Part shown: positions 12,328 through 13,248 of the stretch, in pieces
Position numbering within the stretch: the stretch's first letter is position 1
How the letters are laid out: every line of letters begins with the position of its first letter
Program-made: the position numbers and the translations under genes
The notes under the pieces: model-generated
Databases searched by the model: none
The model's input: the letters and a program-made list of their open reading frames with translations, nothing else
Told to the model about the DNA's origin: nothing
From: a virus
Strand: one strand, 5' to 3'
Length of the DNA: 26,153 bases
Virus record (IMG/VR): IMGVR_UViG_3300032331_000291
Coordinates: 1 to 26,153 of that record

Positions 12328-12351
12328 ATCCTATCTCCTTGCTTATACCTA

Positions 12352-12380
12352 AGTATAGCATACTCAGGGCTACAAGTCAA
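12352..12380 (-). promoter_or_regulatory. Leftward sigma-70 promoter
   Basis: TTGACT (12380-12375), exactly 17 bases, TATACT (12357-12352). Predicted transcription start near 12345, about 18 bases before the first ATG of the small-gene cluster, with AAGGAG in between. Same build as the promoters at 12918, 13017, 13087 and 9689. Confidence 0.78.
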
Positions 12381-12397
12381 GTTCTGACTTATGGCGT

Positions 12398-12447
12398 GTC
12401 CTAGTAGGGTATCGAACCCTAAGCATACCGAACCTATCGGCTAGGAC
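12398..12447 (-). ncRNA. tRNA-like element without anticodon arm
   Basis: Read leftward: a 7-bp acceptor-like stem GTCCTAG (12447-12441) with CTAGGAC (12404-12398); directly stacked on it a 5-bp arm TAGGG / CCCTA with loop TTCGATA, a canonical T-loop; and a 4-bp arm CCGA / TCGG with loop TAGGT in D-arm position. Only 19 bases join acceptor and T-arm instead of about 42, so the anticodon and variable arms are missing. Downstream is ACGCCA, so CCA is not directly attached. Either a tRNA remnant, an attachment-site-like mimic or a working tRNA-like structure. It lies between the stop of the 12458-12772 gene and the promoter at 12352-12380. Confidence 0.55.
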
Positions 12448-12457
12448 TATCTTACAA

Positions 12458-12772
12458 TTATAGGTAATTATCGGCAGGTTTAGCCAACAATTTAGCCATT
12501 ACTTCTAAGCGTTCTTGCGCCTTAATCTTGCGTAGTTCTAACTCGGTTAAGGGTTTAAGGGTAGCAGGTTTAGGCTTAGCGTTCTTAATAGTTCGCCTTG
12601 CCAGTTTAACCGCTTGACTATCCTCGATAGCCACGATTAAATTACCTTCACGATCACGCACCTCTAGATTAGAGAACCGCTTAGAGCGTGAACCTAACCA
12701 CGCCTTGCTAACTCTCACATCTCTAGGGGGTGTGATTATGCTACCCATAACCCCGAAGGGATTATAGGACAC
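12458..12772 (-). CDS. Hypothetical basic protein, first gene of the leftward operon
   Basis: 104 residues from GTG 12772, with GAGAGG eight bases upstream. The N-terminal part is strand-like (KRFSNLEVRDREGNLIVAIEDS); then comes a basic helix (AVKLARRTIKNAKPKPATLKPL) and a charged C-terminal helix (ELELRKIKAQERLEVMAKLLAKP). No family recognised; the net positive charge would suit nucleic-acid binding. It is the first gene behind the tandem promoters and the structured leader at 12793-12897, so it is probably expressed early and strongly. Its regulation through the leader is the most interesting point. Confidence 0.6.
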   Translation of the reverse strand: MSYNPFGVMGSIITPPRDVRVSKAWLGSRSKRFSNLEVRDREGNLIVAIEDSQAVKLARRTIKNAKPKPATLKPLTELELRKIKAQERLEVMAKLLAKPADNYL

Positions 12773-12792
12773 GATCTTACCTCTCTAGTCGG

Positions 12793-12897
12793 GGCTTGAT
12801 TAGATAGTGAGTAAGTCGCTAAGATCACCCGATCAGCGCACCCGCCGATACTACTAGGGGTGAAAGCCCACCGACCTACTTACTACCTAATCAAACC
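12793..12897 (-). ncRNA. Structured 5' leader RNA with 26-bp closing stem
   Basis: Leftward, 12897-12872 pairs with 12818-12793 over 26 positions with 25 pairs, among them three G-U wobbles. The mismatches fit the leftward RNA better than the opposite strand (C-A on the plus reading becomes G-U). The 53-base interior holds ATCGGC / GCTGAT with loop GGGTGC, and a CACCC that can pair either with GGGTG or, in part, with an upstream GGTG, so two states are possible. The predicted start of the promoter at 12918-12946 lies about 14 bases before the stem, and the GTG of the 12458-12772 gene about 20 bases after it. Not a riboswitch class that I recognise. Confidence 0.6.
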
Positions 12898-12917
12898 TTT
12901 ATTTAGTTATTAAGAGT

Positions 12918-12946
12918 ATCTTACACGACTTAATCTAATAAGTCAA
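12918..12946 (-). promoter_or_regulatory. Leftward promoter, proximal copy
   Basis: TTGACT (12946-12941), 17-base spacer ending in AAGTCGTG, TAAGAT (12923-12918). The predicted start near 12911 gives a transcript beginning just before the structured leader. Confidence 0.65.
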
Positions 12947-13016
12947 GTCCGACACGCCCTAACTTCTAAACTTCTTTATTTAGTTATATCGGGTCAAGTT
13001 CTAACCTGATAAGAGA

Positions 13017-13045
13017 ATACTACCACGCCTAATTCTAGAAGTCAA
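13017..13045 (-). promoter_or_regulatory. Leftward promoter, middle copy
   Basis: TTGACT (13045-13040), 17-base spacer containing TTAGGCGTGG, TAGTAT (13022-13017). Shares AATTCTAGAAGTCAAGT (plus-strand reading) with the promoter at 9689-9717. Confidence 0.68.
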
Positions 13046-13053
13046 GTCGTGTC

Positions 13054-13073
13054 GGTGTGATATACCTCACACC
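13054..13073. promoter_or_regulatory. Dyad upstream of the middle promoter
   Basis: GGTGTGA-TATACC-TCACACC, a perfect 7-bp inverted repeat. Its centre is 18.5 bases upstream of the -35 hexamer, the same offset as the dyad at 13126-13141. Confidence 0.55.
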
Positions 13074-13086
13074 ATATTAGGGCGGG

Positions 13087-13115
13087 ATTATACTACACGC
13101 CTAAGAATAAGTCAA
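13087..13115 (-). promoter_or_regulatory. Leftward promoter, distal copy
   Basis: TTGACT (13115-13110), 17-base spacer containing TTAGGCGTGTAG, perfect TATAAT (13092-13087). The strongest-looking of the tandem set. Confidence 0.75.
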
Positions 13116-13125
13116 GCAGTTTAGA

Positions 13126-13141
13126 TGTGGTGTCCATCACA
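13126..13141. promoter_or_regulatory. Dyad upstream of the distal promoter
   Basis: TGTGGTG-TC-CATCACA, 7-bp inverted repeat with one mismatch, centred 18.5 bases upstream of the -35 hexamer. Shares the TGTG...CACA half-sites with 13054-13073. Confidence 0.45.
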
Positions 13142-13154
13142 CTATAAGTAATTA

Positions 13155-13186
13155 GGACAATAGGGGCGAATAGGATATATGGTATT
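13155..13186 (+). repeat. 32-bp direct repeat, copy 1
   Basis: Begins GGACAATAGGGGC and ends GTAT; 26 of 32 positions match copy 2 at 13249-13280. Distance between starts is 94 bases. Confidence 0.5.
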
Positions 13187-13248
13187 TATTAGGGCAGATA
13201 GTCATCAACCCCGCATTTAAGACATAAGGGTATAAACTACACCATATA

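Follow-up and report, generated by a model that had tools for sequence, protein, structure and literature searches.

The stretch of DNA analyzed here, which we call the window, comprises the 26,153 bases of IMG/VR virus record IMGVR_UViG_3300032331_000291. The record is classed, by its length, as a fragment. Its genes include those for a terminase, a portal protein, and WhiB-like and amidoligase-like proteins. Among named records, the terminases closest to its own, at 76% identity, are those of OX376640 and OX376641, which are cultured Planktophila phages (PMC10202952). Terminase similarity, together with the WhiB-like protein, points to a probable actinobacterial host; the phages whose contigs carry the hairpin described here form a family of freshwater, lake-type, and thus probably actinobacterial, phages.

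On its leftward strand, the window carries a 105-nt hairpin that a preliminary description, made from the sequence alone, had proposed as a structured leader RNA located between a promoter and the first gene of an operon. This placement is borne out in the window: a TTGACT-17-TAAGAT match reads into the hairpin from upstream, and the GTG start codon of a 104-amino-acid (aa) open reading frame (ORF) lies 20 nt beyond it. The promoter is predicted to be of the sigma-70 type, and transcription would start near 12911, ~14 nt before the hairpin. A scan of the window sequence revealed no promoter inside the hairpin on the hairpin's own strand. No terminator was found after the hairpin in the window, leaving nothing there to end it as a free RNA. 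The features of the locus are as follows.

12941..12946 (−): −35 hexamer TTGACT of the promoter reading into the hairpin; consensus match
12918..12923 (−): −10 hexamer TAAGAT, 17-nt spacer; consensus match
12793..12897 (−): structured RNA element with class 1b core, 105 nt; fold, covariation, and covariance model R2
12872..12897 (−): P1 5′ arm, pairing with 12818–12793; 25 of 26 positions paired, compensatory changes in relatives
12793..12818 (−): P1 3′ arm; 25 of 26 positions paired, compensatory changes in relatives
12858..12863 (−): P2 5′ strand UCACCC, pairing with 12830–12825; fold, double changes at 4 of 6 pairs (helix 2)
12825..12830 (−): P2 3′ strand GGGUGA; fold and covariation
12850..12857 (−): unpaired joining strand CUAGUAGU; apparent counterpart of the conserved class 2 bulge (U)AGUARCA
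12832..12849 (−): apical hairpin P3, AUCGGCG-GGUG-CGCUGAU; 100% of cells paired in helix 3, three pairs double-changed
12780..12786 (−): purine-rich ribosome-binding site AGAGAGG; from sequence
12458..12772 (−): ORF of 104 aa with GTG start; start 20 nt past the hairpin
12744..12768 (−): 11-bp hairpin in the coding region, from 1 nt after the start codon; fold and synonymous recoding
12398..12447 (−): tRNA-like element of 50 nt directly 3′ of the ORF; one found on the strand versus 0.1 expected from shuffles

The ORF product is basic (21 K/R, 11 D/E) and mostly without a predicted fold; AlphaFold2 models of the protein have low confidence (pLDDT 66 and 58), with the C-terminal helix alone confident. 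Searches of the 104-aa protein against Pfam, PHROGs, NCBIfam, PADLOC, and PDB returned no credible match. No relatives of the gene were found among GenBank phages, the single DNA match being due to chance (E 0.8).

Fold and stability of the hairpin

The hairpin, which runs from 12897 to 12793 on the leftward strand, is the most stable of the 7,444 segments of this length (105 nt) that the record contains on its two strands. Its minimum free energy (MFE) is −58 kcal/mol, compared with −29.0 ± 3.5 kcal/mol for dinucleotide shuffles (z −8.2), and none of 200 shuffles was as low. The outer stem, P1, forms standard pairs at 25 of 26 positions, with a single A-C, and encloses a 53-nt interior, exactly as first described; when the hairpin is folded together with flanking sequence, the P1 pairs have a mean probability of 0.995. 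The interior hairpin first counted as 6 bp needs amending: this apical hairpin (P3) has 7 bp. The interior also contains a 6-bp stem, UCACCC/GGGUGA (P2), a 4-bp stem, UGGG/CUUA, and the unpaired CUAGUAGU. Two competing pairings, of CACCC with either GGGUG, had been proposed as well; the window sequence allows both, but that of relatives such as L004 (GCCUUC/GAGGGC) or L009 does not, and they are therefore not conserved. A pseudoknot between UCG of the P3 loop and CACGA was considered and dropped, as the loops vary among relatives. The window, a fragment, holds one copy of the hairpin.

Conservation across homologous loci

Homologous loci were gathered from IMG/VR with the 104-aa protein, and also with diverged relatives of it, as queries and were surveyed as group A (window-like, L110–L148), group B (L178–L215, about 30% identical), and group C (L217–L232, about 30%). 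Group D (L284, L273, L234, L263, and L271), in which the protein has a different N terminus, was encountered through the hairpin. A covariance-model match lies upstream of the gene at 89 of the 93 loci of groups A–C, a count of loci rather than of independent lineages that includes many near-duplicates; at the other four (L123, L127, L214, and L225), the contig ends within or before the hairpin. The small gene adjoins the hairpin in every intact locus of these groups. The gene order (amidoligase, small gene, hairpin, divergent terminase) is constant, so adjacency by itself is no proof of regulation.

Terminase loci with upstream DNA, 49 in all, include 15 with hairpin and gene, one with the hairpin only (at a contig end), 27 with neither, and six with a distant gene relative but no hairpin. 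Distant gene relatives matching neither hairpin model are present at L082, L085, L090, L091, L096, and L097, and the other GC-rich hairpins found upstream there may represent a further core class. Of 33 records examined as a set, 23 have a significant match to the class 2 hairpin (described below), each of them exactly one. These records are mostly about 39–40 kb, and complete class 2 genomes carry one copy each. Covariance model R1 found no class 2 hairpin in the two cultured Planktophila phages, and no class 1 hairpin was found in the region adjoining their terminase.

Both covariance models describe a single unbranched hairpin. In class 2, P1 varies in sequence and length and is accompanied by a 3-bp helix, UYG/CGA (GCG/CGC or UAG/CUA in group C), and a 4×1 internal loop; the apical part consists of P2 (about 7 bp), an unpaired stretch, (U)AGUARCA, and a 5-bp P3 capped by a small loop, usually of 3 nt. 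Class 1 (the window's class) and class 2 alike have a P2 on which P3 stacks and a bulge containing (C)UAGUA. By this layout, CUAGUAGU would be homologous to the class 2 bulge. The two cores may share descent, but cross-matches between the models are unspecific: with the class 1 model, loci of class 2 give E values of about 1e-8 to 1e-11, and opposite strands of true hairpins score nearly as well.

Compensatory changes and the transcribed strand

Fitted to the covariance model, 46 distinct class 2 sequences show double changes at 24 of 26 pairs, with 309 double-change cells versus 96 in shuffles and a covariation score of 0.668 versus 0.188 (slid structures, at most 0.146). A MAFFT alignment of 25 sequences gave the same result (0.692 versus 0.209). 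For class 1 (15 sequences), double changes occur at 15 of 42 pairs, in 64 cells versus 21, and the score is 0.327 versus 0.154 in shuffles. At most one of 500 shuffles reached any covariation measure, and slid structures all scored far lower. One relative, L148, has arms GGAATAAGTGAGTAG / CTACTTACTTATTCC in place of those of the window, with pairing retained. Another, L001, is a recombinant with arms from two lineages and a broken distal stem. The hairpin is thus a genuine structured RNA whose shape is kept though its sequence varies, with compensatory changes above controls, and the early proposal of a new structured RNA holds up in its homologs. Neither finding named in advance as a refutation of it, homologous leaders lacking compensatory stem changes or a promoter within the hairpin, was encountered.

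G-U cells exceed A-C cells by 139:10 in class 2 and 65:24 in class 1. This excess fixes the transcribed strand: the leftward RNA, which the preliminary description had favored on the basis of its G-U pairs, is what is selected. Covariance model R2 scores 101 bits on the hairpin strand versus 37 bits on the opposite strand.

The preliminary description knew no riboswitch or phage RNA class that the element matched, and Rfam 15 agreed at both strict and permissive thresholds: it returned nothing for the window at the gathering threshold, nothing at E up to 5 within 12330–13200, and nothing at E up to 0.5 for the five relatives searched. ARAGORN found no tRNA or tmRNA. A search of 84,980 cellular genomes with the class 2 pattern yielded nine matches, of which the model confirmed none (the best had E 0.026 and MFE −7.7), and a literature search of partial coverage found no published description of the hairpin RNA. 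It is a new, previously uncatalogued RNA family of a familiar general kind, the phage structured RNA.

Exchange of cores

Near-identical genes can bear different cores. The proteins of L217 and L218 are 98% identical, and their cores are of class 1a and class 2, respectively; L119 and L120 contribute identical rows to the protein tree and carry cores 1b and 1a. Mapped onto this tree, which is built from few columns, core class requires six changes, at least four of them on well-supported branches. Judging by these comparisons, cores are swapped between near-identical genes, and class does not track the protein.

Spacing, promoters, and the downstream gene

In groups A and D, 14–26 nt separate the hairpin and the start codon; in group A, L139 (5′ end cut) apart, the distance is 19–26 nt, too short for a promoter. 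The gap is wider in groups B and C, mostly 50–110 nt. A TTGACA-17/18-TANNNT promoter-like site between hairpin and gene is present at 28 of 34 loci in group B, 7 of 12 in group C, and 0 of 36 in group A, counting loci with automatically measurable hairpin ends, a few of which are approximate. Upstream of the hairpin, TTGACN-17-TANNNT is found at a distance of 11–24 nt at 27 of 36 group A loci; in groups B and C, the automatic search located an upstream promoter at just 7 of 34 and 5 of 12 loci, respectively, and in group B an extra small structured element often sits between promoter and hairpin. All of these promoters are consensus matches.

Co-transcription of the hairpin and the small gene is likely in groups A and D. 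Where a promoter-like site intervenes, as in most of groups B and C, a transcript of the gene could start beyond the hairpin and lack it. The designation as a leader therefore suits the window and groups A and D but not most of groups B and C, where a promoter-like site intervenes and cores are swapped. Intervening promoter-like sites and the pairing of near-identical genes with different cores make it unlikely that the conserved role is cis control alone.

The second hairpin of the locus, at the start codon, is matched in stability by only 3 of 500 synonymous recodings of the window gene, and it persists despite other N-terminal peptides (MKSTLAGR in L292, 2 of 500 recodings; VTRVYHG in L099, 5 of 500). 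The recoding test was not significant for L228 and L230, and the hairpin is missing in group D. It looks selected, so translation of the small-gene mRNA seems to be controlled. Such a hairpin also occurs at the gene starts of L099, L231, and L292 and, across groups A–C, is apparently conserved at the RNA level. Folding of the window region gave no alternative pairing between the 105-nt hairpin and the ribosome-binding site.

Possible functions of the RNA

We tentatively favor an explanation in which the RNA is itself what the locus provides: a small RNA that binds a protein, has a promoter of its own, and in the window would be fused to an mRNA 5′ end. The sigma-70-type promoter, located in the regulatory region that separates the leftward genes from the rightward terminase operon, would give rise to a folded RNA of about 70–105 nt. 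P1, an end-to-end stem, would hold and protect a core in which P2 and P3 flank an asymmetric bulge of ~8 nt, (U)AGUARCA in class 2 and CUAGUAGU in the window, and this core probably binds a protein, whether host RNA polymerase, an RNA-handling factor, or the adjacent small basic protein. In the window and close relatives, where the RNA would be fused to the 5′ end of the small-gene mRNA, it may protect or regulate that mRNA or be released by RNase III. Covariation, strand bias, presence at 89 of 93 loci, single copy, intervening promoter-like sites, and core exchange all speak for a small RNA; the constant neighboring gene family, which a free RNA does not need, speaks against it but can be explained by the constant terminase/amidoligase order, and further objections are the lack of a terminator, the rarity of upstream promoters in groups B and C, and the leader-like spacing in groups A and D. 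It is also possible, if somewhat less probable, that the hairpin is a cis-acting 5′ leader controlling stability or translation of the small-protein mRNA, for example through autoregulation or as an RNase III site, such as the one ahead of the ribosome-binding site in the lambda N leader. Same-strand adjacency, universal across diverged protein subfamilies, agrees with a leader, as do the short promoter-free distance to the start codon in groups A and D, the grip of a selected-looking hairpin on that codon, with mRNA translation apparently controlled, and the small, basic, mostly unfolded protein. Such a role is harder to reconcile with the promoter-like site at 35 of the 46 measured group B and C loci, which would give hairpin-less mRNA, with cores that change while the gene does not, and with the lack, in the window, of an alternative pairing between hairpin and ribosome-binding site. 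The small-RNA explanation fits most of the facts, with the leader a close second.

By analogy with HK022, the hairpin might instead act as a putRNA-like nascent RNA that binds the transcribing RNA polymerase just downstream of the promoter and keeps it from pausing or terminating within the leftward operon. We consider this improbable: the 11–24 nt that separate it from the −10 box in group A, a size similar to that of putRNA, and a strong structure with conserved bulges would suit such a role, but it is an unbranched single hairpin rather than two stem-loops, it occurs once per class 2 genome versus putL and putR of HK022, and most group B and C loci have a promoter-like site right after it, so that downstream transcripts could lack it. 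A metabolite riboswitch is very hard to credit, even with a conserved core within a stem in a 5′ leader, since there is no expression platform (neither a terminator nor a structure competing between hairpin and ribosome-binding site), a hairpin of −58 kcal/mol is too stable to switch plausibly, the neighboring gene matches no known family, and Rfam has no riboswitch match. Least probable of all is a DNA-level palindrome, that is, a cruciform, a protein-binding site, or an inverted-repeat mobile element; the inverted repeat does sit in an intergenic region, but the G-U excess is strand-asymmetric, the opposite-strand model scores far fewer bits, no target-site duplication is visible, and position is constant relative to the gene.

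Returning to the small-RNA explanation, we speculate, with considerable doubt, that the hairpin forms an exchangeable cassette, its protein-binding core, in at least two forms (class 1 and class 2), recombined at a fixed place beside a near-identical gene. Taken jointly with this idea and equally doubtful, the swapping would be expected if diversifying pressure acted on the RNA, for instance because it confers immunity to related phages or helps to evade a host defense that senses RNA. A covarying RNA present as one copy in each of many long phage records points to RNA biology overlooked by protein annotation; the covariance models let it be searched in metatranscriptomes at once, and class exchange provides a concrete handle on what it recognizes.

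Relation to known systems

Several known systems resemble the locus in part. The ompA-type 5′ mRNA-stabilizing hairpins are likewise very stable and close to an mRNA 5′ end; the conserved bulge and swappable core classes seen here exceed the needs of a plain stabilizer. Type III toxin-antitoxin loci also place a structured RNA directly before a small gene, but the hairpin is a single unit without tandem repeats, and the protein, unlike a ToxN-like endoribonuclease, has no PADLOC or NCBIfam match and no credible Pfam match. The lambda N leader (nutL, RNase III stem, N gene) shares the arrangement of a promoter, an RNA structure, and a small, basic, mostly disordered first leftward gene, but both RNA and protein differ. 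Lambda nut sites are present in both early operons, unlike the single-copy hairpin. A multi-operon element of the N/nut or put type was disfavored by this single copy. HK022 putRNA is about 70 nt, has two stem-loops, and occurs as putL and putR (PMC9378689). The likeness to the hairpin is that of a folded RNA of about 70 nt shortly after a phage early promoter; the hairpin differs in being unbranched, single copy, and without an Rfam match.

Elements accompanying the hairpin

The tRNA-like element 3′ of the ORF (12398–12447) comprises a 7-bp acceptor-like stem, a D-arm-like hairpin, and a 5-bp T-arm with a TTCGATA loop, lacks an anticodon arm, and is recognized by neither ARAGORN nor Rfam; it could be a 3′-end processing mark or a small RNA. 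Comparable elements follow the small gene elsewhere (L001, 3327–3376; L080, 2763 (−); L102, about 2815–2755 (−)), and two occur in L234 (8797–8748 and 9296–9250 (−)); in group D, the element also follows another small gene. The acceptor stem shows compensatory changes (GTCCTAG/CTAGGAC, GTCGTAG/CTACGAC, GTCCTGC/GCAGGAC), and the T-arm loop is of the TTCGANN type. At L179, L181, L102, and L172, the stretch between hairpin and gene has an inverted repeat of tRNA-like form that overlaps the promoter-like site there (TTGACAAGTCGCGTAGCGTAGGCTATACTAGGCTCACAACCTAGCGCGAC).

Upstream of the hairpin, L179, L181, L192, and other group B loci carry one more small structured element, AAGTTAGAACCCC-GATA-GGGAGCGTCCCTAACTT, whose stem varies in sequence. 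In the window, 12900–13130 (−) contains tandem leftward promoter-like sites, with first hexamers at 13115, 13045, and 12946, and another such site lies at 12380. The sequences GGCGTGTC/GACACGCC recur beside several of these sites, and AACTAAATAAAG occurs twice.
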